From the NCBI GenBank assembly GCA_903822545.1, contig CAIJPN010000184.1, forward strand, positions 1 to 38,693: a stretch of 38,693 nt of DNA. Reading direction: 5' to 3'. Origin of the DNA: an uncultured Anaerolineae bacterium. Lineage in GTDB: Bacteria > Chloroflexota > Anaerolineae > Anaerolineales > Villigracilaceae. Each line of letters starts with the position of its first letter. Position 1 is the stretch's first letter. The notes beneath the pieces are model-generated. The model saw only the letters and a list, made by a program, of their open reading frames with translations. It was not told where the DNA came from and did not search any database. The position numbers and the translations under genes are program-made. Shown here piece after piece: positions 20,090 to 34,475 of the stretch.

Positions 20090-23000
20090 TTATTTTTTGT
20101 GCAGCAGTTCGCTCATGAGTGTGGACAGGTTGCGCAGGCCAACCGGTTTGCTGACGTATTCGTTTGCTCCGGCGGCCAGGCAGCGTTCGCGGTCTTCGTT
20201 CATGGCCAGGGCGGTGAGGGCTATGATGGGGGTGTGTTTGAACTGTGGCATGGTACGCATACGGCGGATGGCTTCCAGCCCGTCGATTTCGGGCATCTGG
20301 ATGTCCATCAGGATGATGTCTGGGGGTGTTTGCACCGCTTTTTCGAGTGCTTCCCGGCCATTTGTGGCGATGATGATGCGGTAGCCAATGCTTTCCAGGT
20401 AGTCACCGGTGGTGACTACGTTGATTTCGTTGTCTTCGGCCAGGAGCACAACCCCCAGGTATTGGGCGGCAGGGATGCCAGGGGTTGCCGGTTCTTCCTG
20501 GTGATGCGATTCGGGGATATCCAGGGGCTGTTCCAGGCCTGGTATGGTGTGCCAGGGCAGCGTGACGGTGAAGCAGCTGCCCGAGCCAACCTGGCTGGTG
20601 ACGGTTACGGTGCCGTTGTGCATCTCGGCCAGTCGTTTGACCAGCGCCAGCCCCAGGCCGGTGCCATCATATTGGCGGGTGAGGCTGGTATCTACCTGGG
20701 TAAAGGGTTTGAACAGGCGCGCCAGGTCAGCCTGGGAGATGCCAATGCCGGTGTCTTTGACCATGAGTTCGATGCAGTTTTGCGGTGCGTTGGCATGAAT
20801 TTGCAAGATGACCCTTCCGTTGAGCGGGGTGAATTTGACGGCGTTGCTGAGCAGGTTGACTAAAATCTGTTTGAGCCGCAGCTGGTCTACTGATATGGTC
20901 GAGACGCGCGAATCAGGCAGGTATTCCAGCGCGATGAACTTTTTGATGGCCTGTTCTTTGACAAAGGCCAGGCTGGCCTGACAGACATCGTTGATGAAAA
21001 CCGTTTCAGTGTGCAGTTCCAGTTTTCCGGCTTCGATCTTGGAAAGGTCGAGCAGGTCGTTGATGAGTGAGAGCAGGTGCCGCCCACTGGCATCGATGGT
21101 ACGCACATATTTTTGCTGGTACATGTTGAGCGGCCCGCGCATTCCATCCAACAGGATTTCAGAAAGCCCCAGGATGCCATTCAGCGGGGTGCGGAGTTCA
21201 TGGCTCATGTTTGCCAGGAATTCATCTTTCATGCGCATGGCGCGTTCCAATTCGGCGTTGGCAAGCCGCAGGGTTTCTTCCACCTGTTTGCGGGCGGTGA
21301 TATCGCGGATTACGCTCTGGACGAATTTGGGTTTGTGGTTTTCGTCGCGGATTAGCGAGAGGTTGATTTCTGAGAGGATGAGTGTGCCGTTTTTGCAAAC
21401 CAGGGTGCGTTCGTAGCTTGGAACCGTGTCGCCGCGTAAAATGCAGACAAACCGGTTGAAGGCATCTTCCAGTTCTGTAGCCAGGACAAAGTCGGATGAT
21501 TTTCGCCCGATCATCTCCGTGCTGGTATATCCCAAAAGCTGCCCACAGTGCGGATTCACCCGGATGACCCTGGCGTGTGGATCAAGCAGGAAGATGGCGT
21601 CGTTGGCGTTTTCAAACAGGGCGCGGTAAGTTTCCTCGTTTTCGCGCAGGGCATTTTCGGCCAGTTTTTCCTGGGTGATATCCTGGATGACACCGATGAT
21701 TTGGTCGACCTGGTGATCTGAATTATTCACAACAACGCCATGTGCGCGGATGTAGCCCATTCCGCCATTGCGCAAGATGCGATATTCAATTGGGGTGTAG
21801 ACTGCGTTTTCAATGGCCGATTGGGCAGAATCCATTAGCCTGGCAACGTCATCTGGGTGAACTATTTTAAATAAAGTTGCCATCGTGCCGTCAAAAGCTT
21901 CATGGCTAATGCCGTTGATAGCGTACATTTGTTCATCCCACAGGAGCTGGCCGGTGTGCATGTTCCACTCCCAAACGCCCATCCCGGCGGCCCTGGTTGC
22001 CAGCTCGAGACGCTGGCGGGTGGATTCAATCTCTTTTGTGCGCGCTCGAACGCGGTTTTCCAACTCGGTGAACAGCCTGGCATTGGATAATGCCGCTGAA
22101 GCGCGGAATGCCAGGGCTTCTAAAAAACGCAGGTGGTCTTCTGTGTGGGAATTTTTAACCATACTGAAGATTTGCAGCGCCCCGGCCACTTTGCCTTCTT
22201 CGGTTAGCGGCACGATGATGGCAGAACGGGTGGTTTCAGCATCTTCGGGTGGTTCATCCACGATCTGGGCTTTTTCGTTGATGTGATAGGATGTTTTGGC
22301 GGTTTTCATGGCCTGGATGTAATCTGGCAGCAGGAGCGATTCTCCGCTGCGGATGACCAGGCTCTGGGTGCCGCGCCCCGGCGGTTCAAGCGGGATGGGT
22401 GGGAACCCGGAAACATCCTGCGCGCCGTATTCACTTTCCATGTGCTGGCAGGTGAGCAGTTCGGTTTGGGGGTCAAATGATGAGACGATGAGCATGTCGC
22501 AGGGCAGGGCAGCGGAGGCATAACGGTAGATTGTGCTGTAGATTTCTTTGGGGTTGAGCGTCTGGCCCAAGGCCCGCCCGGCTTCCACCAGCAGTGAAAG
22601 GTCTTTGGTGCGCGCGTTCAGGGTTTCCATCAGTTTTTGGCGTTCTTCTTCACTCTTCTTGCGCGCGGAAATATCGATTATTTGTGCCAGCAGGCAGGGT
22701 TCATTCTCAATTTCGATAATCTCTGCCGACATCAGCACGGTTCTTTTTTGCCCGTTTTTAGAGCATAAAATCGTCTCGAAGTCATGCACTGGCTGTCCGC
22801 CTTCCAGCCCCGATAATAAATCGGCCCGTTGTTGCGGGTCATCCCAAATGCCCAATCCCAACGCTGTGGCCCCGATGATTTCCTGGCGTTCGTAACCCAG
22901 CAGGTTAACCCAGGCCAGGTTGACTTCAATGATGACATTATCGCGCCGGCGTGATATGACAATACCCAACGGGCTGTGCTGGACAATGGTGGCAAAGCGT

Positions 23001-26000
23001 TTCTCACTCTGGCGCAGGGTTAATTCGGCTGTTTTGCGTTCGGTGATATCAACCGAGATGTTAGCGTAATGTTCCTGGCCCACCATAAAGACCGAAGACA
23101 TGTAACTGCGATTATTACCCTCAAAATGCGTTTCAAAGAGCCTGGCTTGTCCGCTGGCAACCACCTGGCGCGAGATATCAATATACCCGCTCATTGTTCC
23201 CATACCGAACAATTCGGATGCGCGCTTGCCGATCAATTCATCGGCAGGTTTCCCAAGGCTTTGGGCGCCAAGTGGGTTGATGTCGCTGATCTCCCAGTCA
23301 ATAATTTCACCATGCTCGTCATGAACCAGGCGGTAAATAATCCCTTCGAGCGGCACATTATTGAATAAATCGTTGAATTTATGCGTACTGGCGTGCAAAT
23401 TCTCTTCGGCCAGTTTTTGCTCGGTGATATCCTGGATAATGCCCATGGTGCGCGCTGGGCGGCCATTTTCATCATAGCTAATCTTAACCTGCTCATGCAG
23501 CCAGCGTTTGCGCCCGCTGGGCAGGTAAACGGGGTATTCATAATCCAGGTCTCCCTGAGAGGCCAGCAATTTTCGTTGCCACTCAAGCAAATTTTTCAGG
23601 TCAGCAGGATCCATCAGGTTGCCGATTGTGGCATGGGTTGGGGGATCGCTATCGCGTGGCAGTTCAAGGATGTTATAGAGTTCATCAGAGAAAACCAGGG
23701 TTGCATTGGGCGCAACCCACTCCACATGGCCAATACGCCCAATACGTTGGGCTTCGCGCAGCAGCGCCTCACTTTTGCGCAACTCCACATCAATACGTTT
23801 GCGTTCAGTAACATCAATGGTAATCCCATGCCAGACGATACTGCCATCCGTTTCCCGGATTGGCGTGGAATGACCTTCCAGCCAGATCATGCCCTTAACC
23901 GGGTGGTTATACAGGTATTCATTGTGCCAGGGTTTCAGGGTGTGCGCCGAGACTTCGATCGCTTTCATCAAAAGATCGATCTGTTCAGGCGGCACTCTTT
24001 GAGTGAGCGCATCAATATTGTTAGCAAGATCGGCCAGTTTTAAGCCATACAGGTCTTCAAAAGCTGCGCTGGCATAGGGGATGTTCAACCTCCCGTCGGC
24101 ACTTAATCGGAAGGTGCAAATGGCCCCCGGAACGGTGGCGGCCAGGCTGGCAAAGCGATTTTGTTCAACCTTGAGTATCTCATCCATCCGCTTTTGCTCA
24201 GTTATATCCAGCGAGTTAATCATCGCCAGGATCACCCGCCCATCTGCATCACGTACCGGCTGGGCGCTGATGCGCCACCAGCGGTTTCCTGTTGGCAGTG
24301 GTTCTGATATCTCATATACATTACCCTGTCCGTTGGCAAACACCTGGAGCACCATATTAAACCGGAGCATTAAAGTTGATTCGGGGAAGAAATCGTGGAT
24401 TTTCCCCCCTACGATCTGCTCAGGAGAAGCTCCCAGCTCTTGTGCGCCGATATCGTTGATATAGTGGAAAACGCCCTCGGCATCTATTGTGGCGATGGCA
24501 GCTTCCTGGCAGTTTACCAGGCTGCGATATTTCTCCTCGCTTTCGCGCAACGCTGATTGTGTGTGCAGCGCAATCGCCAGGTTCCCAACCTCGGTGGCCA
24601 GGGTTTCAAGCGTCTGACGGGTTAATGGCGGCACAACATCCAGGATGTGCGAACCGATATTCATGCTGCCCAACACCTGCCCCTGGTAATGGATGGGAAT
24701 CACTGCCAACGCCCCCATTCTTTCGCGCTGGTGATGCGGGTGCACCGACAATTCCTGCCTGTCAAAATAAATTGGCTGGCCGTTCATCACCACCCGGGCA
24801 CTGGGAGAAGCTAACTCATAAGAAGATACGCTGGCCGTAAACTCTGCGCTCAGCCCAGCGTGATAGACCATTTTCAGCCGTTGTAGTTTCTGGTCAAGCA
24901 TATAAATGCCCCCGCAATCCATGCCCGAAACCGACAAGACTGTTTCAAGGCAAGCTGGCCAGGGGGCTTGGCCAGTTGTGAACATGCTGATGATGCGCGC
25001 CAGGTCACGTTGGGCCTGTACCAATTCTTCAAACTGTTTTCGCTGGGTAATATCCTGGGCGACCCCATTGACAAAAGCTGGCTGTCCATTTTCATCCAGC
25101 AGCAGCCTGGCTTTCATGTGAATCCACCGGACATCCTGGTTTGCCATGATGCGGAATTCAACATCAACGGCATTGTTTTCATTGTATGCCTGGTCGGCAG
25201 TTGTAAGGTTGGGTATGGCAGCTTGCCAGGCAGCCTTCACTTTATACCGATCAAGGGGGTGGATGAGTGCCAGCAAGGTATCAACGTTTGTTACCCTGGC
25301 GGGCAGTTCAATCTCAGGTGCGATGGTGGTGTTCAATTCAAACATCCCGGTCTTCAAGTCAAGCATCCAGCTGTGCAGGTTGGCAATCACCTGGGATTCC
25401 TGTAAAAGCTGCTGGTTTTTGCGCAGCTTCTCCTCGGCCAGTTTGCGCTCGGTAATATCAATGCTGGTACCCCACATACGCACCAGCTTCCCATTTTCTA
25501 CTGTTCCAATAGTGTTACTCAGGCACCAGATGGGCTGCCCATCGGCAGTATATTCAAACGTCTCATCGTTGACCGATTTATAGCCATTGGCAATAAACTT
25601 CCTGAAGGTGGCGCGGTTGACCGGATTATCTTTGCCACCATGGGCATCGATCATACGCACGCCAATTAACACATCCACTGATGGCAGGTGGTACATATCG
25701 GCCAGGGCCTGGTTGCTTTCGGCCATATATGCGTTGGCGTAAATGGCGTCGATCTGTTCTTCTATGGGGAGGCTGGTGTCGATGGGTTGGTCAAACCCGG
25801 TCAGGTAGATGCCTTCGAAGCTTTGGCTGATGAACTGCTGGTAACGTTCATCGCTCTGGTGCAGCGCCTGGTAGCGCGAATCGCTTTCTTCCACCTTTCG
25901 GATCAGTTTTTGGCGCTCAATGGCGTGACGCACCACCCGCGCGGCCATGCTGTAACCGGCTGTATCTTTCAGGAGATAATCCTGCGCCCCGGCCTGGATT

Positions 26001-26269
26001 GCCTCGAGGGCTTTTAATTCATCCAACCTGTCAGACAGAATCACCACCGGCACATGCGGCGCCTGGCGATGGAGTGCTTCAAATGCGGGTAGTGCTGCCA
26101 GAATAATATCGAATGTTGCGCCTGCCAATTGCAACAGCCCGGCCTGACTGTTTTCAACCGCGCACACTTCAAATGTATTCAACGAATCTTTGTTCAGTTC
26201 AGATTGTATGAGCAATACATCGGCTGGGTTGTTTTCAACCAACAAGATTTTGATGTTCGTATTGATCAT
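20090..26269 (-). CDS. giant soluble hybrid histidine kinase (REC-PAS/GAF array-HisKA-HATPase-REC)
   Basis: A 2059-residue protein without membrane helices. Order: receiver-like domain (5-120); PAS 140-275 and 285-412; GAF 417-570; PAS 577-693, 700-825, 830-953, 960-1078 and 1085-1205; GAF 1222-1398; PAS 1412-1535 and 1541-1662; HisKA with His1690 in MSHELRTPLNG; HATPase with SNAVKFT, DTGIG (1839-1843) and GTGLGL (1869-1874); receiver 1938-2057 with Asp1989 in LMDIQMPEIDG. The linkers repeat the DITERK signature after each PAS. The first receiver lacks the phosphoacceptor Asp: ILAALPAFEAL replaces the usual LLDLSLP. It presumably integrates several cytoplasmic signals and autophosphorylates, passing phosphate to Asp1989. 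The output partner is unknown. GAGGAG precedes the ATG. It is divergent from the second kinase. Confidence 0.95.
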   Translation of the reverse strand: MINTNIKILLVENNPADVLLIQSELNKDSLNTFEVCAVENSQAGLLQLAGATFDIILAALPAFEALHRQAPHVPVVILSDRLDELKALEAIQAGAQDYLLKDTAGYSMAARVVRHAIERQKLIRKVEESDSRYQALHQSDERYQQFISQSFEGIYLTGFDQPIDTSLPIEEQIDAIYANAYMAESNQALADMYHLPSVDVLIGVRMIDAHGGKDNPVNRATFRKFIANGYKSVNDETFEYTADGQPIWCLSNTIGTVENGKLVRMWGTSIDITERKLAEEKLRKNQQLLQESQVIANLHSWMLDLKTGMFELNTTIAPEIELPARVTNVDTLLALIHPLDRYKVKAAWQAAIPNLTTADQAYNENNAVDVEFRIMANQDVRWIHMKARLLLDENGQPAFVNGVAQDITQRKQFEELVQAQRDLARIISMFTTGQAPWPACLETVLSVSGMDCGGIYMLDQKLQRLKMVYHAGLSAEFTASVSSYELASPSARVVMNGQPIYFDRQELSVHPHHQRERMGALAVIPIHYQGQVLGSMNIGSHILDVVPPLTRQTLETLATEVGNLAIALHTQSALRESEEKYRSLVNCQEAAIATIDAEGVFHYINDIGAQELGASPEQIVGGKIHDFFPESTLMLRFNMVLQVFANGQGNVYEISEPLPTGNRWWRISAQPVRDADGRVILAMINSLDITEQKRMDEILKVEQNRFASLAATVPGAICTFRLSADGRLNIPYASAAFEDLYGLKLADLANNIDALTQRVPPEQIDLLMKAIEVSAHTLKPWHNEYLYNHPVKGMIWLEGHSTPIRETDGSIVWHGITIDVTERKRIDVELRKSEALLREAQRIGRIGHVEWVAPNATLVFSDELYNILELPRDSDPPTHATIGNLMDPADLKNLLEWQRKLLASQGDLDYEYPVYLPSGRKRWLHEQVKISYDENGRPARTMGIIQDITEQKLAEENLHASTHKFNDLFNNVPLEGIIYRLVHDEHGEIIDWEISDINPLGAQSLGKPADELIGKRASELFGMGTMSGYIDISRQVVASGQARLFETHFEGNNRSYMSSVFMVGQEHYANISVDITERKTAELTLRQSEKRFATIVQHSPLGIVISRRRDNVIIEVNLAWVNLLGYERQEIIGATALGLGIWDDPQQRADLLSGLEGGQPVHDFETILCSKNGQKRTVLMSAEIIEIENEPCLLAQIIDISARKKSEEERQKLMETLNARTKDLSLLVEAGRALGQTLNPKEIYSTIYRYASAALPCDMLIVSSFDPQTELLTCQHMESEYGAQDVSGFPPIPLEPPGRGTQSLVIRSGESLLLPDYIQAMKTAKTSYHINEKAQIVDEPPEDAETTRSAIIVPLTEEGKVAGALQIFSMVKNSHTEDHLRFLEALAFRASAALSNARLFTELENRVRARTKEIESTRQRLELATRAAGMGVWEWNMHTGQLLWDEQMYAINGISHEAFDGTMATLFKIVHPDDVARLMDSAQSAIENAVYTPIEYRILRNGGMGYIRAHGVVVNNSDHQVDQIIGVIQDITQEKLAENALRENEETYRALFENANDAIFLLDPHARVIRVNPHCGQLLGYTSTEMIGRKSSDFVLATELEDAFNRFVCILRGDTVPSYERTLVCKNGTLILSEINLSLIRDENHKPKFVQSVIRDITARKQVEETLRLANAELERAMRMKDEFLANMSHELRTPLNGILGLSEILLDGMRGPLNMYQQKYVRTIDASGRHLLSLINDLLDLSKIEAGKLELHTETVFINDVCQASLAFVKEQAIKKFIALEYLPDSRVSTISVDQLRLKQILVNLLSNAVKFTPLNGRVILQIHANAPQNCIELMVKDTGIGISQADLARLFKPFTQVDTSLTRQYDGTGLGLALVKRLAEMHNGTVTVTSQVGSGSCFTVTLPWHTIPGLEQPLDIPESHHQEEPATPGIPAAQYLGVVLLAEDNEINVVTTGDYLESIGYRIIIATNGREALEKAVQTPPDIILMDIQMPEIDGLEAIRRMRTMPQFKHTPIIALTALAMNEDRERCLAAGANEYVSKPVGLRNLSTLMSELLHKK

Positions 26270-26734
26270 GATATGTCTCCTCAGCAGGCGTCACCACTCC
26301 TGATAAGATGATCACCCGCTGCACTAACCCTGATGCGGTTCTTTGGGTGGCGCTGGCCATGGCGTTTCCCAAGGCAATGTCAGTATGAAGAAATTGGCTT
26401 GTTCGTAGGCGCTTTTTCAGACGATCTGCCGTTATACTGGATCGCAAGCCTGGTTTTTTTTGTTGCTCAAAAGGTCAGGGCCGGCGAAGCGAGTTGTCAA
26501 CTCCAGCTCCATACCAAACCGCGGGTTGGTATGGGGCTGCTCGTATGCTTGAAATGTGCGGGGTTATGCATTTACAGCGTCTTAGTATATCCCAAGTCAT
26601 TTGGGTATGATTATTTTGATAGTGTGTTGCATGGAAACAATACCTAAGGATTATAATAATTTCTTTCTTGGGGAATTTCATTTGAAATAGATGCAAAACT
26701 TGGCATTTATGTATCCTGGTTGTGTGAGGTGAAA
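26270..26734. promoter_or_regulatory. divergent intergenic region with three palindromes
   Basis: This 465-bp region separates two divergent sensor kinase genes and has no convincing gene. Palindromes: GAGTTG-T-CAACTC (26491-26503), a 26-bp one with arms CCATACCAA and TTGGTATGG (26509-26534), and CCCAAGTCATTTGGG (26591-26605). The first two are only five bp apart and could be operators or hairpins. A short AT-rich run with TATAAT (26653-26658) could be a -10 box for the plus-strand kinase gene. No known binding-site consensus is recognised. Confidence 0.5.
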
Positions 26735-29089
26735 ATGGATTTGCCGTCGCATAATAAAATACGTCTCCTGCCTATGCAATTGGTTTTTGTGCTTCCATAT
26801 GTTTTTTTGACCATTGTCACGGTAGGGCTGGTTGGGTACGTTGTGCTTTCAAATGGGCAAAATGCAGTGAATGAAGTTGCACATCAGATGCGCAGTGAGC
26901 TGGTCTGGCGTGTTAAAACGCGCATTGAAAGCTCCCTGGATGTTCCCCATCAGATTAACCATGTGAATGAAAGCATCCTGGAACAAAAGCTGGTGAATCT
27001 GGCTAGCGCCAAAGACCTCCAGCAATATTTCCTGGGAATGGTCAAAAACTACCCCACCATCACCAGCATCTATTTTGGCAATACCAGCGGCGGCCTGGCT
27101 GGCAGCGGGCGGGAAGGCCCCGGCGGGGAGTATTACACCTACTCAACCGAGAATTTCCAGGCTGGTACCTTCACAAAATATAGTGTGGATGCCAGCGGGA
27201 AAGCGGCATCCTTGTTGACCACTGTCCCGAATTTTGATGCACGTACACGGCCCTGGTATATCAACGCGGCTGGCAAAACCTCGGCTGGCTGGAGCCAGAT
27301 TTACATCCTGTTCACATCGCAAGATATGGCCATTGCCGCCAGCACCCCGGTCTATGATGCCAACCAACAGCTTTTGGGCGTGCTTTCTGTGGATATTTTC
27401 CTGGCACAGATTAGCAGCTATCTCCAGACCATTGACCTGCCCGGGGATGGGGAAATCTTCATCGTGGAACCCAACGGTTTGCTGGTGGCAACTTCCACCG
27501 GGGAGAAAATGTTCGTCGATGGTAACAATGACGGGGTGATGGAACGCGTCCAGGCAGACAAAAGCACATCGCCGATGGTCAGCCGCGCGGCAGAATATCT
27601 AAAAAGTAAGTATGGCAGGGATTATGCCAATCTCCCCTGGTTGGAATACCAGCTTGAATTTGATATGAATGGCAGCCGTCAGTTTTTGCAGATGCTGCCC
27701 TTGGAAGACCCGTATGGCTTGCGCTGGATGATTGTGGTTGTGGTGCCGGAATCCAGTTTTATGTCTGAGATCAATACCAGTAAGCGATCGACAGCCTATA
27801 TCACCATCCTGGGGATGCTGGTTTCCATTTTGGTCAGCATTTTCATCGCCCAAAAGATCAGCCGCCGGATTCACTGGTTGGGGGTGCAAGCTGAATCCAT
27901 CGCCAGGGGCGAGTGGATTGAGGGCATCCAGGCTACCAGCGGGATCAATGAATTGCGCAAATTGGAGATTTCTTTTGCCTGGATGCAGAGTCAACTGCGG
28001 AAAACGCTCGACAGCCTGACCAGCGAAATTACTGAAAGAAAACAGGCTGAAGTGGCTCTCAGGGAGAGTGAGATCAAATTTCGCAGTGTGATCGAACAAT
28101 CTCAGGAAGGTTTTGTCTTGATCAATGAACAGGGGCTTGTCGTGGAGTGGAATCGTGGGATTCAGCAAATTACAGGGATTCCCGCTCCAGAGGCAGTTGG
28201 CCAGCCCATCTGGGATCTGCAATATAGGATTATGCTGCCCGAACGCCGCCAAGATGCAAATATGGCGCTTTTGAAGGCACGCACCCTGGCAGGCTTCCAG
28301 GAACGCCAGGCTCCCTGGCTCAACAGCAGCAATCGAGGTGAAATCCTGTGTACGGACGGTCACCGTAAATTCGTCCAGATGAGCACATACGGTGTCTTGG
28401 TGGGTGAAAAGTTCATGATTGGCGGATCTATGCACGATATCACCGAAGAACGCCAGGCGCTGCTGGAAAAAGAAACCTTGTTGCGCGAGTTGTATCATCG
28501 CACCAAGAATAATATGCAGGTAATCTCGTCCCTGCTGGCTTTGCAGCAGGATTACACCGCCAACCAGGAAGTTATTGCGCTGGTCGAGGAAATGCGCGGG
28601 CGAATCAATTCGATGGCGATGGTGCATGAAAAGCTATATCAATCGCGCAATCTTTCCAGTATCGATATGTCAGAATATATCCGCGATCTGGCCGACTTGC
28701 TGCGGAAAAGTTATGCTTTTTCTGATGAAGTCAATATGCGTTATGAGATGGATAGTGTTTTTGTGTTGATTGATACGGCTATCCCCTGTGGCCTGATGGT
28801 TAACGAACTGGTCTCCAATGCCCTGAAATATGGTTTCCCGGCGGGGCGCTCTGGCGAAATCGTGATTACGCTTAAAAACACCACCGAACAGATTGTTTCC
28901 CTGACCATTTCAGACAATGGTGTGGGGTTCCCACCGGGATTTGATCCACGTTCGCACGGCAAGTTGGGCACCGAAACCATTTTTGCGTTGGGCGAAGCGC
29001 AGCTTGGCGGCAAGGTCGAATTTTTCTCAAATAACGGTGTAACCTGCTCGATCGTCTTTGATAACAATTCTTATACTCCCAGGGTATGA
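26735..29089 (+). CDS. dCache-HAMP-PAS sensor histidine kinase (HisKA_2 type)
   Basis: A 784-residue membrane kinase. Membrane helices near residues 13-36 and 353-375 bracket a double-Cache sensor region (about 40-330), which contains FDARTRPWY, a common Cache motif. A HAMP linker (about 376-428), a PAS domain (about 440-565) and a HisKA_2 dimerisation domain follow, with phospho-acceptor His588 in LYHRTKNNMQ. The ATPase has NELVSNALKYGFP and DNGVGFP; the second glycine box is replaced by LGTETIFALGEAQLGG, known in this kinase subfamily. Extracellular small-molecule sensing is inferred. GAGGTGAAA before the ATG at 26735 decides the start over a TTG at 26720. The response regulator follows six bp later. 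Confidence 0.94.
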   Translation: MDLPSHNKIRLLPMQLVFVLPYVFLTIVTVGLVGYVVLSNGQNAVNEVAHQMRSELVWRVKTRIESSLDVPHQINHVNESILEQKLVNLASAKDLQQYFLGMVKNYPTITSIYFGNTSGGLAGSGREGPGGEYYTYSTENFQAGTFTKYSVDASGKAASLLTTVPNFDARTRPWYINAAGKTSAGWSQIYILFTSQDMAIAASTPVYDANQQLLGVLSVDIFLAQISSYLQTIDLPGDGEIFIVEPNGLLVATSTGEKMFVDGNNDGVMERVQADKSTSPMVSRAAEYLKSKYGRDYANLPWLEYQLEFDMNGSRQFLQMLPLEDPYGLRWMIVVVVPESSFMSEINTSKRSTAYITILGMLVSILVSIFIAQKISRRIHWLGVQAESIARGEWIEGIQATSGINELRKLEISFAWMQSQLRKTLDSLTSEITERKQAEVALRESEIKFRSVIEQSQEGFVLINEQGLVVEWNRGIQQITGIPAPEAVGQPIWDLQYRIMLPERRQDANMALLKARTLAGFQERQAPWLNSSNRGEILCTDGHRKFVQMSTYGVLVGEKFMIGGSMHDITEERQALLEKETLLRELYHRTKNNMQVISSLLALQQDYTANQEVIALVEEMRGRINSMAMVHEKLYQSRNLSSIDMSEYIRDLADLLRKSYAFSDEVNMRYEMDSVFVLIDTAIPCGLMVNELVSNALKYGFPAGRSGEIVITLKNTTEQIVSLTISDNGVGFPPGFDPRSHGKLGTETIFALGEAQLGGKVEFFSNNGVTCSIVFDNNSYTPRV

Positions 29090-29095
29090 TCAGGT

Positions 29096-29464
29096 ATGAG
29101 CAAAAAAATTACATTCATTATTGTCGAGGACGAAGCCCTTTTTTCGTTACACCTGGCCCGCCAGCTTCACCGCAAAGGGTACGATGTTATTGGGCGTTTT
29201 GTTTCTGGCGAACAGGCGGTGGATTACACCCGGAATCACATCCCAGATGTGGTGACAATGGATATTGGTTTGCATGGCAGGTGGAACGGCGTCGAAACTG
29301 CTCACAAGTTGCGCGAATTCACCCAGGCCCCCATCATTTTTATCACCGGCTATTCCCAAAAAGAGATAATCGATCGCGCGCTGCAAATTGAGCGGGCCTA
29401 CTACCTGCCAAAACCGTTGAATGACCGGGAATTTAATTCCATCCTGGAAAAAGTGCTGTCTTAA
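29096..29464 (+). CDS. single-domain response regulator
   Basis: A 122-residue receiver domain with no output domain. Acidic residues EDE (11-13) and the phospho-acceptor Asp56 in VVTMDIGLHG are present, with Thr in IFITGYS and Lys in YLPKPLN completing the active site. This CheY-like protein is most likely phosphorylated by the HisKA_2 kinase encoded six bp upstream; that pairing is typical for the kinase class. It must act through protein contacts, possibly with a separate effector or phosphorelay protein not found in the window. Confidence 0.93.
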   Translation: MSKKITFIIVEDEALFSLHLARQLHRKGYDVIGRFVSGEQAVDYTRNHIPDVVTMDIGLHGRWNGVETAHKLREFTQAPIIFITGYSQKEIIDRALQIERAYYLPKPLNDREFNSILEKVLS

Positions 29465-29763: not shown

Positions 29764-29828
29764 TTAAAGCCCATCCCCCCACCGGAACGTGTGCCCGTCA
29801 GGGCAGAAGGATGGGGGTGGGAAAAATA

Positions 29829-29855
29829 AAACGCCCGGCGGCGTTCCGGGCGTTT
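29829..29855. terminator. GC-rich hairpin, possible terminator
   Basis: Arms AAACGCCCGG (29829-29838) and CCGGGCGTTT (29846-29855) pair exactly around a 7-nt loop. The short A and T runs could support termination in either direction, between the response regulator (+) and the M42 gene (-). Confidence 0.55.
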
Positions 29856-29963: not shown

Positions 29964-30953
29964 TTAAATTTCGACCGGGTTCGAGAGCATCGCCGCGATG
30001 AGTTTGACGGCGTTCTGCACATCGTTGTAATCCACCATCTCGCTCGGCGCATGGACGTAGCGGCACGGGATGGAGATGCAGCCCACCGGCACACCGGCGC
30101 GCGAAACCTGCATGGCGGTGGCGTCGGTGGTGCCGCCCAGCAGCACTTCGCGCTGGTACGGGATTTTGTTCTTTTCGGCGGTGGATGTCATCCAGTGGAT
30201 GATGCGTGGGTCAGCCAGCATCCCGCCATCTTTGACCTTGATGGCCGGGCCGTTGCCCAGTGCCACGATAAAGTTCTTGATGCCGGGGGTGTCGCCCCAG
30301 CCAGTGACATCGATGCTGAAGCCCAAATCGGGGGCCACACCATAGGCCGATGTCCCGGCGCCGCGCAGTCCAACTTCTTCTTGCACAGTGAAAACGAAAT
30401 ACACCTCGTGCGGCGTCTCTTTCAGCGCGCGCAGGGCTTCAATCGCCACCGCACAGCCGATGCGGTCGTCCATGCTTTTCGCCACCAGGCGGTCACCCAG
30501 ATCCATGAAAGTGCGGTCAAAGCCACAGACATCGCCAACCTTAACGGGGTGATTCTTGTCGCTGGTCGCGCCCACGTCGATATAAAACTTCTCGATGGCC
30601 GGGGTGTCGCTTGGCTTTTCAATCGGCTCGGCGTAAATCACGCCCCGCGTGCCGTTGACGAAACGCACCCGCCCGCCCATCATGTTCTGCGGGCGCACAC
30701 CGCCAATATTGGTGAAACGCACAAAACCTTTTGCGTCGATGTGGGTGGCAATCAGGCCGATTTCGTCCATGTGCGCCGCGATCATGATCTTTTTGCCGCC
30801 TTTGGGGCCTTTGCGCACGATCAGGCTGCCCATCTGGTCAACGCGCACTTCATCAGCCAGCGGCGTCACCTCGGCGCGGATCACATCACGGATGGCGCCT
30901 TCATAACCGGAGGGGGAGAAAGTTTCAGTCAGTTTTTGAATGAGTTGTTTCAT
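29964..30953 (-). CDS. M42 family metallopeptidase (copy A)
   Basis: A 329-residue aminopeptidase of family M42 (TET/endoglucanase-M type). Metal-binding and catalytic motifs are complete: AHMDEIG, MDDRIG, QEEVGLRG, SIDVTG and the C-terminal YVHAPSE. Members form hollow 12-subunit complexes that trim short peptides to amino acids in the cytoplasm. AAGGA precedes the ATG. It is the last gene of a four-gene minus-strand cluster, 58 bp after the S51-like gene. Cleavage preference cannot be read. Confidence 0.95.
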   Translation of the reverse strand: MKQLIQKLTETFSPSGYEGAIRDVIRAEVTPLADEVRVDQMGSLIVRKGPKGGKKIMIAAHMDEIGLIATHIDAKGFVRFTNIGGVRPQNMMGGRVRFVNGTRGVIYAEPIEKPSDTPAIEKFYIDVGATSDKNHPVKVGDVCGFDRTFMDLGDRLVAKSMDDRIGCAVAIEALRALKETPHEVYFVFTVQEEVGLRGAGTSAYGVAPDLGFSIDVTGWGDTPGIKNFIVALGNGPAIKVKDGGMLADPRIIHWMTSTAEKNKIPYQREVLLGGTTDATAMQVSRAGVPVGCISIPCRYVHAPSEMVDYNDVQNAVKLIAAMLSNPVEI

Positions 30954-31011
30954 GGAAAATCCTTTTTATTCACATTATGGAGTGCGGAAGCTCACTTCCG
31001 CAGCGCAAAAG

Positions 31012-31728
31012 TCAAGGTAAATGCAACTTCTCACCAGCCGCAAAACTCAAAACCTGTTGGTGCGTGATGACGAACACCTTCCGGCATCCCATCACCTGCC
31101 ACTCGCCGCCGAGATGCCCCACCAGCGCAGTATCTTCATCCAGGCCGAGCACATACTCATCTGCGGGCAAAAGCGCCTGTAAAACCGGCAACGTTATTCC
31201 ACGCCAGGCCAGCATCCGGTCAAAGTGCGGGAAAATGTGCGCTTTTGACAGCAGCCCAAAGGCTTTTTGCTGGCGCAGGCCGAAAGAGCGCATATCCGGC
31301 AGGAATTCGCCCAGGAACATCGCCCCGGCGGAACAGCCCGCGAAGGCTGCTCCCCGCCCTGTCGCTTTTATGACCGCTTCCCAGGCTTTACTGCCCCGCA
31401 GCGTTTCGTACAGATACCCCGGCTTGCCACCAGAAAAATAAATCAGGTCGGCCCCGGCAATTTGATCCGCGAAACGCGCATCTTCGGCAGATTCCCGATC
31501 AACGATAGGCAGCCCGCTGACATCTGCGCCCAGCGCCCGGAAGTGCTCCTCGCCCATGCGCATCCAGCGTCCCCAGGATTCTTCGCCTTCCTGCCCGGCG
31601 GCGGTTGGGAGACAAACCACTCGCGGGGTTTTGCCCGCCGGGGCGGCTGCATCCAGCAAGAACCGGTCAACAGCGTTCATCACGGGCAGGTATTCGCCCG
31701 AGCCGAGCAGCGCCACCAGGCCGTTCAT
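31012..31728 (-). CDS. S51-like peptidase / type 1 glutamine amidotransferase-like protein
   Basis: A 238-residue protein of the peptidase S51 superfamily (dipeptidase E and cyanophycinase relatives). It begins VALLGSGEYL and has FSGGKPGYLYETL and the nucleophile elbow FAGCSAGAM, with Ser133 as the likely nucleophile. A signal peptide is lacking, so it acts in the cytoplasm. Relatives cut Asp-X dipeptides or cyanophycin, but some of this family have no known substrate. It lies between M42 genes with a four-bp gap upstream and is probably co-translated, which suggests a part in peptide recycling. There is no clear Shine-Dalgarno sequence. Confidence 0.85.
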   Translation of the reverse strand: MNGLVALLGSGEYLPVMNAVDRFLLDAAAPAGKTPRVVCLPTAAGQEGEESWGRWMRMGEEHFRALGADVSGLPIVDRESAEDARFADQIAGADLIYFSGGKPGYLYETLRGSKAWEAVIKATGRGAAFAGCSAGAMFLGEFLPDMRSFGLRQQKAFGLLSKAHIFPHFDRMLAWRGITLPVLQALLPADEYVLGLDEDTALVGHLGGEWQVMGCRKVFVITHQQVLSFAAGEKLHLP

Positions 31729-31732
31729 GCGA

Positions 31733-32797
31733 TTATCGGCGTTCCTCGGCCAGCAAATCGGGGGAGATGCGTTTTAGCGCGGCAGAGAGCAGCGCCAGCG
31801 AGTTCTTCCAGTCATCCAGCCGCGCAATCGAGGCAGCCGAGTGAGTATAGCGATGCGGCACCGAAACCGAAACGGTCGGAATGCCCGCCCGCACCTTATG
31901 GATCGCGCCGCCATCCGTCCCGCCGCCGCCCGGCTGCCGGTACTGATACGGGATTTTCTCCTCGTCGCCGGTCGCGCTCAGGAAACGGATCAGGCGCTGG
32001 TCGTTCAGGGTTCCAGCGTCAGCTGTGTAAATGGCCGGGCCGCTGCCCAGCTTGGTGTTGTAGGAAATGTTCTCGCTGCCGTCAAACATCGGCTGGTCGT
32101 TGGCGGGGGTTGAATCCACCGCAATGGCCAGGTCGGGGTTGAAATGATAAGCCGCCACCCGCGCCCCGCGCAGGCCGATTTCCTCCTGCACCGAGAAAGA
32201 CAGGCACAAATCCACATTGGCAGGCGGGTTTTTCAGCAGGTCGATCAAAATCGCCACGCCGATGCGGTTGTCGATGGCCTTCGAGATGATGGCCGGGCCA
32301 TTACGCTTGAAATTCGGCACAAACGCCGCGCGCTCGCCAATTTTGGCCTTACCCGCGCCGCCCGGTCCCAGATCGATTTTCAACTGGTCGAGCGGGATTT
32401 TGCGCTGGCGCTCTTCTGCCGTAGTCAGGTGGATGGGCCGCGCCCCGATGACACCCGGCAGTTTGCCCTTGCCGACCACCACGGCCCGCCCCGGAAGCTG
32501 GCGCACGTCGATGCCGCCCACCAGTTCGAAGCGGTACAGGCCTTCGCCTTCGTCGCTCACCAGCATAAAACCGACTTCATCCATGTGACAATCGAGCATC
32601 ACGCGCAGGCGGGAGCCGTCAGAAGTGCCGGACTTTGTCACCAGCACATTCCCCAGCGCATCGACTTTAACCTCGTCGGCGTAGGGTTTCACTTCTTCCA
32701 GCACAATTTTGCGCACTTCGCCTTCATCGCCCGAAACGGCGCTGGCGTTGCACAGCTTTTCGAGCAGTTTGATCTGTTTTTCGGTGATATTTGGCAT
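31733..32797 (-). CDS. M42 family metallopeptidase (copy B)
   Basis: A 354-residue M42 aminopeptidase. It opens KLLEKLCNASAVSGDEGEVR, the usual family N-terminus. Ligand motifs are DCHMDEVG, IDNRIG, QEEIGLRG, AVDSTP and YTHSAAS; all metal-binding positions are kept. GGGAAG precedes the ATG, and the gene begins three bp after copy C ends. Copies A, B and C differ clearly in sequence, so they are old paralogues and may have different side-chain preferences or mix in one complex. Confidence 0.95.
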   Translation of the reverse strand: MPNITEKQIKLLEKLCNASAVSGDEGEVRKIVLEEVKPYADEVKVDALGNVLVTKSGTSDGSRLRVMLDCHMDEVGFMLVSDEGEGLYRFELVGGIDVRQLPGRAVVVGKGKLPGVIGARPIHLTTAEERQRKIPLDQLKIDLGPGGAGKAKIGERAAFVPNFKRNGPAIISKAIDNRIGVAILIDLLKNPPANVDLCLSFSVQEEIGLRGARVAAYHFNPDLAIAVDSTPANDQPMFDGSENISYNTKLGSGPAIYTADAGTLNDQRLIRFLSATGDEEKIPYQYRQPGGGGTDGGAIHKVRAGIPTVSVSVPHRYTHSAASIARLDDWKNSLALLSAALKRISPDLLAEERR

Positions 32798-32800
32798 GGG

Positions 32801-33862
32801 TTAATCTTCCCAGACAATTTTCGAGACAAAATCGGCATCCAGGCTGGCGATGAATTCCGCCACCAGGCGGCCGACGCGGTTGATGTCTTTGTACGAAACC
32901 ACTTCCACGGGGGTGTGCATGTAGCGCAGCGGAATCCCGATGATGGCGGTGGGGATGCCTTCGGCTGTGATCTGCGTGGCGTAGCCATCGGTGCCAGACA
33001 TGCGCGGCATCACATCCATTTCAAAGGGGATTTCGAGCTTTTCAGCCAGCTCTTTGAATTTTTTCTGCAAAAACGGGTGGACATTTGGCCCCAGCCCAAT
33101 GGCCGGGCCTTTGCCGAGTCCGTGAGTTTGCCAGTCGGAGGCCCCGGGGCCTTTGGCAAAGGTCACATCCACAGCAATGGCGAGTTCGGGGCGCAGGCCA
33201 AAAGCCGAGGTGAAGGCGCCGCCCAGGGTCACTTCTTCCTGCACAGTCGCCACCGCCCAGACATCCCACAGGTGCTTTTTGCTTTGCAGTTCTTCCAGTG
33301 CCACCGTCAGGGCAGCCACCGAAGCGCGGTTGTCGAGCGTGTGGCCCGAGATCACATCCCCGCTCAGGTCGGTGGGAGTGGATGCGTACGAGATTGGTGA
33401 ACCAACCGGCACTTTGGCGGCAACTTCTTTGGGAAGCAGGCCGGTATCGACCCACAGGTAGCCCATCTCGACCACGCCTTCGCCAACGCTGGGGGGCAGG
33501 GTCTTGCCCGGCGGCAGGACTACTACACCGGGAATGTCTTCCGTCCCGTGAACCGTGACCGGCGTCCCCGGCAGGATGCGCGAATCAACGCCGCCCACCT
33601 GTGTGAAGCGGATCAAGCCATCGATTACCTGTGTCGCCAGCAGGCCGATGGCGTCCATGTGGGTGGCAACCATCACCGAGGGGCGTTTTTCGGCAGTCGA
33701 GGCGCCTTTTTTCAGTCCTTGCAGCGAACCGATGCGGCTGATGCTGATTTCATTGACCAGTGGACGCCACTTTTCTTCGATAATCCGAGAGATGGGCGTT
33801 TCGTACCCCGAAAGGCCCGGGGCCGAGAGCATGGATTTCAGGAATGGGGAAATATCTGGCAT
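32801..33862 (-). CDS. M42 family metallopeptidase (copy C)
   Basis: A 353-residue M42 aminopeptidase, first gene of the cluster. It has FLKSMLSAPGLSGYE, ATHMDAIG, LDNRAS, QEEVTLGG, AVDVTF and YMHTPVE; the metal ligands are kept, though the residue after HMD is Ala instead of Glu. The frame runs back to 33928, but ATG 33862 gives the normal family start and the upstream extension is basic and unlike the family. No good Shine-Dalgarno sequence precedes it. The operon promoter should lie at 33863-33986. Confidence 0.93.
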   Translation of the reverse strand: MPDISPFLKSMLSAPGLSGYETPISRIIEEKWRPLVNEISISRIGSLQGLKKGASTAEKRPSVMVATHMDAIGLLATQVIDGLIRFTQVGGVDSRILPGTPVTVHGTEDIPGVVVLPPGKTLPPSVGEGVVEMGYLWVDTGLLPKEVAAKVPVGSPISYASTPTDLSGDVISGHTLDNRASVAALTVALEELQSKKHLWDVWAVATVQEEVTLGGAFTSAFGLRPELAIAVDVTFAKGPGASDWQTHGLGKGPAIGLGPNVHPFLQKKFKELAEKLEIPFEMDVMPRMSGTDGYATQITAEGIPTAIIGIPLRYMHTPVEVVSYKDINRVGRLVAEFIASLDADFVSKIVWED

Positions 33863-33986
33863 GGGAATTGGGACTTTTGAATGGGATTTTCTCGAAAATG
33901 GCCTAGAAAAAACGGCTGAAGTCGTCACTACTTGGGTAGTACCAACTTCAGTCGGGCAATACTGCTATACATTCCATCCCCTGGCG

Positions 33987-34475
33987 CTATGGTGTCGATG
34001 TTGGGGTAGGGGTTTCAGGCGTGTTGGTTGGCGGCAGGAACGGCGTGGGTGTGTTGGTTGCTGTTGGCGGGACTGGCGTAAAGGTGGCTGTCGGCGTGGA
34101 TGTGGCGGTGGATGTGGCGGTATTTGTGTTGGTCGGTGTCGGCGAGGGGGTGATGGGAGTATTCGTCGGCGGCAGGAACGGCGTGGCAGACGGTGTGAGG
34201 GTTTGGGTGGGCGTTTCGGTAGATGTGGCTGTGGCTGTGTTGGTAATAGTCGCGGTTAACAGGTTTGGCGTGACGGATGGGCCATTTGTCAGGGATGGGA
34301 TCACTAATTCGGTAGCGGTAGCAGTTGGCGTATTCGATGGAGTCGGGGTGGGGGTGGTTGGCCCGGGTTTAAATTGCATGGCGACCAGTCCCAGGCAATA
34401 GCAGGGAATGGTCGCCAGGATAATCCAGAGCAAGGCTGTACGTCGCCGGTTGGTAGTTTCGTCTGCGTTAAACAC
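33987..34475 (-). CDS. membrane-anchored Thr/Pro-rich protein
   Basis: A 162-residue protein with a basic N-terminus (NRRRTALL) and one membrane helix at about 13-33, followed by 120 residues made almost only of Thr, Pro, Ser, Asn and Ala. The segment PFLPPTNTP occurs twice. No folded domain is present. Such tails act as extracellular stalks in Anaerolineae proteins and may be heavily O-glycosylated, but here nothing follows the stalk. The start is GTG, with a promoter-like sequence ending six nt upstream. It may be a truncated relative of a larger stalk protein. Confidence 0.72.

Follow-up and report, generated by a model that had tools for sequence, protein, structure and literature searches.

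The stretch of DNA analyzed here, called the window, comprises 38,693 nucleotides of an uncultured Anaerolineae bacterium of the family Villigracilaceae (Chloroflexota; contig CAIJPN010000184.1) and contains three genes for paralogous M42 aminopeptidases, which were named M42c, M42b and M42a in the order of their transcription. These genes are probably the version, within Chloroflexota, of an old bacterial operon that encodes three M42 (TET-type) aminopeptidases in the fixed order M42c-M42b-M42a and whose products would share out basic, acidic and neutral residues among them. This reading is carried by the order of the genes, the orthology of each position, the intact active-site residues, and pocket residues that are specific for each class. 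There is good support for the view that the three genes work as one set, because their order is conserved across phyla, all three are present in 52 of the 61 genomes of the family, and they are kept where the operon is broken. The cluster is real and widespread, and it is mostly explained as a peptide-recycling set.

The three genes are located on the minus strand together with a gene for an S51-family serine exopeptidase, and the transcribed order is M42c (32801..33862), M42b (31733..32797), S51 (31012..31728) and M42a (29964..30953), with stop-to-start gaps of 3, 4 and 58 bp. We infer that M42c, M42b and S51 are co-translated. The M42c gene probably starts with the ATG at 33862. A longer frame would begin with the GTG at 33928; however, most orthologues of the family begin to align only at about residues 16-23 of that frame, and therefore the ATG is the likelier start. 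The three M42 proteins scored 293, 243.8 and 230.7 bits with PF05343 (cut-off 23.2), which places them in the MEROPS family M42; M42c is of the 1vho (TM1048) type, M42b of the 2fvg (TM1049) type, and M42a of the TmPep1050 type. In an alignment with TET3 of Pyrococcus furiosus (PfTET3), equivalents of H63, D65, D177, E207, E208, D230 and H314 are present in all three copies, D65 being presumably the catalytic Asp. Each copy has the five metal ligands, the general base Glu and the catalytic Asp; ligands and general base are those named for PfTET3 in the accessible part of PMC4745047. The pairwise identity among the three proteins is 28-35%. The initial annotation was thus correct in describing three M42 paralogues that keep their metal ligands and yet differ in sequence, gaps of three and four bp between the first three genes (two M42 genes and S51), and an S51-like peptidase in the cluster (PF03575, 56 bits versus a cut-off of 23.9). 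The genome encodes a fourth M42 protein on another contig (L003, G000:C41:51462-52322), which is closest to TIGR03106 (NAGGN system), but stays below its cut-off (320 versus 397.75 bits).

The order M42c-M42b-M42a recurs in other phyla, and therefore the cluster is more than a chance arrangement. Genome contigs were scanned across phyla with the class-c alignment, and the best 80 of more than 589 candidate stretches were kept, a sample in which trios (three M42 genes that share a strand and span no more than 9 kb) are over-represented. Trios were found in 53 of these best 80 loci, 35 of them with Bacillota titles, 14 from Chloroflexota, one from Thermotogae (L095), and three entitled 'bacterium' (L101), 'Bacteroidetes' (L108) and 'Lutibacter' (L123); the archaeal and verrucomicrobial loci among the best 80 contain a single M42 gene each. 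Addition of 31 further Chloroflexota loci yielded 84 trios. When the longest frames are taken, 72 of the 84 trios have a c-b gap of no more than 60 bp and 54 have such a b-a gap, with both gaps this short in 50. Within a sample of the phylum, M42c had a match at E up to 1e-40 in 49 of 131 genomes, and the 28 loci from outside the order of the window (L047-L074) comprise 25 lone M42 genes, one trio (L047), one c-b pair (L048) and one locus with two M42 pieces (L065). No peptide-transport neighbourhood was recognized among the recurring neighbours in other phyla, which by eye look like housekeeping genes.

Each position of the trio is an orthologous line of its own. A tree of 332 sequences calculated with FastTree united all 84 second genes in one clade that includes 2fvg (support 1.0) and all 84 third genes in one clade with 4p6y (TmPep1050; 0.996); the clade that held 83 of the 84 first genes had a low support of 0.243. 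A second tree of 104 rows was calculated with a mixture model and included the archaeal proteins PfTET3 and TET2 of Pyrococcus horikoshii (PhTET2), but not TET1. In this tree each gene position occupied one side of a branch (99, 100 and 99 in the Shimodaira-Hasegawa-like approximate likelihood ratio test, SH-aLRT), rows outside the groups not being counted. The named rows closest to the genome of the window were from Chloroflexota. PhTET2 and PfTET3 were each other's sisters (98) and did not group with the a and c genes. Therefore, the archaeal split between neutral and basic specificities appears to be separate from the bacterial one.

The structures 1vho and 2fvg, which we take to be TM1048 and TM1049 of Thermotoga maritima, link the trio to this species, in which the genes for TM1048, TM1049 and TmPep1050 are presumably neighbours: 2fvg and 4p6y lie inside the second- and third-gene clades, and 1vho lies beside the first gene of L095. 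This Thermotogae locus, from a metagenome-assembled genome, resembles the window in having three M42 genes in a row and differs in that an S51 match and the motif of the small PCYC protein (see below) were looked for and not seen. TmPep1050 was studied by itself and is a leucine aminopeptidase (PMC3511314, in part). The accessible text of the same source mentions three characterized M42 aminopeptidases of Symbiobacterium thermophilum; the consecutive numbers of two enzymes of this species, SthPep1079 and SthPep1080, which were left out of the tree, recall the arrangement in the window. A conserved order might also have arisen by transfer of the operon between lineages rather than by vertical descent from an old ancestor. 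The single Thermotogae locus among the best 80 would fit with transfer, as would the many deep forks that are open in the 104-row tree (39 of 101 inner branches). However, the sampled Chloroflexota rows and the unplaced L101 form one group in class b (97) and in class a (98), and also in class c (89), although the Bacillota row L116 mixes in there. Transfer is therefore regarded as a possible, but rather unlikely, source of the conserved order.

The presence of the trio in the family of the window is near all-or-none. Tight protein searches (E up to 1e-75) of 61 family genomes matched M42a in 53, M42b in 52 and M42c in 55 genomes. When the results were combined by hand, all three genes were present in 52 genomes and none in six (G010, G012, G022, G038, G039 and G055, of which G039 and G055 are 60 and 66% complete), and three drafts were incomplete. 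Two of the latter, G015 and G028, retain a fragment of M42b where the contig ends. The third, G034, yielded no M42b: 1.7 kb of contig beyond M42c is free of it, and M42a is encoded close to the beginning of a different contig. Among the 52 genomes that hold the whole trio, 45 have it in one short stretch of a contig, and in four (G035, G049, G054, G056) it is split between contigs, with a piece that borders on a contig end. The scattering of the genes in close relatives, which the initial annotation named as evidence against its reading, is seen in two or three of the 52 (G026, G040 and probably G050), in which the genes are nevertheless all retained.

The specificity pocket of PfTET3 is formed by Thr232, Asp254 and Glu281, as described in the accessible part of PMC4745047. 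The 281 column is acidic (E or D) in 78 of 84 class c proteins and basic (R or K) in 82 of 84 proteins of class b, and it is occupied by E in 83 of 84 class a proteins. Among 304 columns, each filled in at least 67 of the 84 rows of every class, it is the sole one with opposite charge between two classes at 80% or more in each. The 254 column contains K in 82 of 84 class a proteins; in class b it is Y, S or T in all but one of the 84 proteins, and in class c it is G, A or T in 61 of 84. In the window the 254/281 residues are G/D in M42c (negative), Y/R in M42b (positive) and K/E in M42a (neutral), and with the window included, 76 of 85 trios have net pocket charges of -1, +1 and 0 for c, b and a. 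The K/E pair that marks class a also occurs in PhTET2 and TmPep1050, both leucine-type enzymes. M42c is predicted to prefer basic and M42b acidic N-terminal residues, and M42a would be a leucyl-type enzyme that prefers neutral residues. At the sequence level the predicted division of labour among the three enzymes is well founded. It is very improbable that they are redundant tandem duplicates kept for dosage and sharing one and the same task. Common family membership and common catalytic residues would be expected of such duplicates, but not three distinct clades of great age whose members keep their positions across several phyla, nor a pocket charge that is specific for each class.

Several observations weigh against an ancient operon with divided specificities. 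Nine of the 85 trios depart from the -1, +1, 0 pattern, and the specificities of the b and c types are predicted at the level of single residues. The NCBIfam cut-offs for glutamyl and lysyl aminopeptidases are reached by none of the three M42 proteins: M42b scored 177.3 with the glutamyl model TIGR03107 (cut-off 469.7), and M42c scored 186.2 with the archaeal lysyl model NF040822 (cut-off 700). For PepA of Streptococcus pneumoniae (SpPepA) a positive patch in the S1 pocket, namely Arg257, is held to explain the acidic preference (accessible parts of PMC3718333 and PMC4803204). However, by residue counting Arg257 would fall at the 254 column, in contrast to the R or K of class b at 281, and thus seemingly at another wall of the pocket. 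MHJ_0125 is described as glutamyl-specific with an Asp at the place of Arg257 (PMC3718333, in part), and therefore the pocket charge does not always predict the preference. As regards the operon, the 80 best matches to a class-c query are no census, and some Clostridia (e.g., L134, L135, L165 and L168) have only c and b together in the fetched DNA. The FastTree clade of first genes is weak, and outside it 1vho pairs with the first gene of L095. Six genomes of the family have lost the whole set, so that the trio is dispensable there. In genus g3 the operon is broken, with all three genes apart in G026 and M42a at a distance of 127 kb in G040; it is probably broken also in G050 of the same genus, in which M42a is on another contig.

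A comparable set is known from archaea. TET1, TET2 and TET3 of P. horikoshii prefer acidic, neutral and basic residues, respectively, and have been called an integrated peptide-destruction system (PMC4220976, accessible part). Like the window, P. horikoshii has three M42 paralogues with complementary specificities, which for the window are predicted; the two sets are not orthologous as far as they could be compared, TET1 being absent from the tree. It is plausible that the trio is the bacterial counterpart of the archaeal TET1/2/3 set. In view of their differently charged pockets, M42c, M42b and M42a most likely remove basic, acidic, and neutral or hydrophobic N-terminal residues, respectively, from oligopeptides in the cytoplasm, and peptides delivered by ATP-dependent proteases and by uptake would be reduced to free amino acids by the trio together. 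The tight spacing of the genes would keep the amounts of the three enzymes in step. In the family of the window, the S51 exopeptidase would have been added between b and a, perhaps for peptide ends that the M42 enzymes handle poorly, and a gene for a small membrane protein usually heads the operon.

Individual M42 members are already known, as are the three-enzyme system and the mixed cages of archaea, and the M42 literature that was found mostly treats single enzymes or the archaeal set. No description of a conserved bacterial three-M42 operon was found among the listed results of a literature search for which most subscription papers were beyond reach. The fixed order in several phyla together with the reversal of the pocket charge offers a plausible bacterial equivalent of TET1/2/3 and names a task for each gene. 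If this is true, the trio together may dismantle almost any short peptide. It would also provide a position-based route to the annotation of M42 enzymes, some of which are still named endoglucanases, judging from the molecule names of PDB matches. In addition, mixed bacterial cages and peptide recycling become a simple question for the bench.

PhTET2 and PhTET3 form stable mixed particles with 6:6 and 8:4 stoichiometries (PMC4220976, in part), and two or three of the bacterial paralogues might likewise share one 12-subunit TET particle, in which basic, acidic and neutral sites would face one chamber. This arrangement is possible, but rather unlikely. That archaeal paralogues do mix speaks for it, as do D137, R311 and Y312 of the dimer interface, which are nearly invariant in all three classes, Gln206 and the aromatic residue at 219 of the dimer-dimer interface, which are largely common to the classes, and the near all-or-none presence with a conserved gene order. 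However, the paralogues of the trio are 28-35% identical, in comparison to 51% for PhTET2 and PfTET3, the latter being a stand-in for PhTET3, the archaeal partner known to mix. Moreover, other dimer-dimer contact positions (R212, P257, N292, Q295 and R298 of PfTET3; R220, H248 and I292 of PhTET2) are variable or depend on the class, and TmPep1050 is active alone (PMC3511314, accessible part).

In every one of the 84 trios both PP positions of the PPH loop are missing from M42a, and M42b has kept the loop His in 84 of 84, a pattern that is also seen in the window. The His of this loop may reach the active site of the adjacent subunit (PMC8993905, in part), and therefore help in trans would be possible in a mixed cage. 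A single mixed TET cage with basic-, acidic- and neutral-preferring sites, in which the loop histidine of neighbouring M42b subunits assists M42a in trans, is an unlikely, speculative extension of this idea; the division of labour known from archaea would then have evolved independently in bacteria and become fixed as an operon across phyla.

The S51 gene appears to be a different matter from the three M42 genes. Its product matched best 6nqc among PDB entries, a cyanophycinase-like exopeptidase of family S51 (E 6.9e-45), with which it shares Ser, His and Glu. S133 (in GCSAGA), H168 (in HF) and E198 are invariant in 23 S51 sequences including that of the window, and S133 and H168 are presumably catalytic. 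Both more specific assignments failed. As a PepE-type dipeptidase the protein scored 23.1 with NF003642 (cut-off 156). Cyanophycinase was rejected because of a low score with TIGR02069 (47.5 versus 126.6) and because no cyanophycin synthetase above the cut-off was found in the genome, the best TIGR02068 match having 48.7 versus 850 bits.

An S51 orthologue, defined as about half identical or more and counted by hand, is present in 32 of the 61 family genomes, and 29 lack a match at this level. In 28 of the 32 the gene lies between M42b and M42a (across a contig break in G035 and G056), and in four it is elsewhere (G058, G049, G060 and G010). Short remnants in the b-a gap of two genomes (G037:C17:34946-35092 and G009:C141:3294-3518) are a sign of gene loss in place. 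The S51 gene is an accessory of this lineage. The initial annotation had suggested that the cluster may encode a mixed-subunit peptide-recycling machine with a partner dipeptidase. This is supported in part, as the three M42 genes with their order across phyla make up a functional set, whereas mixed subunits are a possibility; the partner dipeptidase is not supported, in view of the low PepE score, the 29 genomes without a match at the orthologue level, two of which show remnants, and the four in which the gene is elsewhere. It is also improbable that S51 acts as the chief peptidase partner in what would be a four-gene machine. Its usual place between b and a and its invariant catalytic residues would be in agreement with such a role. 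In many relatives, however, the gene is absent, relocated or a remnant, and a match was seen in only one (L160) of the best 80 cross-phylum loci. Furthermore, in G060 and G010 it directly follows the gene for the PCYC protein, without M42 genes (L183:6352-8044 and G010:C29:45444-46622, the latter in L184); the trio of G060 is on another contig (L196), and the S51 match of G010 is in pieces.

PCYC (33987..34475, minus strand) is a small unannotated membrane protein whose gene usually leads the operon. It has a hydrophobic N-terminal stretch with the motif TIPCYCLG, which is followed by a Thr/Pro-rich stalk. No Pfam family was matched by the protein, and single members of the alignment gave merely stray weak matches. 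A profile of the N-terminus matched 56 of the 61 family genomes, once in each, with a weak second match in G032. In 49 of the 56 the gene precedes M42c on one contig by no more than 1.3 kb, and the exceptions are G058 and G048 (contig ends), G050, G060, G010, G012 and G038. When the fetched loci were searched strictly for the motif, 20 of 30 family trios and six other Chloroflexota loci proved to have it. The gene is retained in G012, G038 and G010 despite the absence of the trio there, and its neighbour in G060 and G010 is S51. Therefore, the task of PCYC need not depend on the M42 enzymes.

Downstream of M42a, a terminator-like hairpin with a T-rich tail is present at 29828..29855 (minus strand; two overlapping pattern matches); the scan with this pattern gave eight matches versus 7.0 in shuffled sequences and thus no excess. 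The promoter-like pattern gave nine matches versus 2.5 in shuffles, all of them consensus matches only. Two genes for signalling proteins adjoin the cluster, as recognized by eye from their translations, i.e., a 2059-residue sensor kinase-like protein (20090-26269, minus strand) and a sensor kinase with a response regulator (26720-29464, plus strand). Among 31 loci of relatives (L035-L047 and L075-L094), a gene on the opposite strand that resembles SbcC by eye is often located upstream of the operon (23 loci), and one that resembles DUF456 by eye, also on the opposite strand, is located downstream (16 loci); neither was recognized among the reading frames of the window, in which no search was aimed at them. 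In two relatives a type VII toxin-antitoxin pair HepT/MntA lies between M42b and M42a, at L077:8639-9464, where both genes are above the NCBIfam cut-offs, and at L092:7838-8738, where the pair was assigned by eye. An MntA-like gene is also found at L078:3766-4275 and, by eye, at L082:9889-10302.

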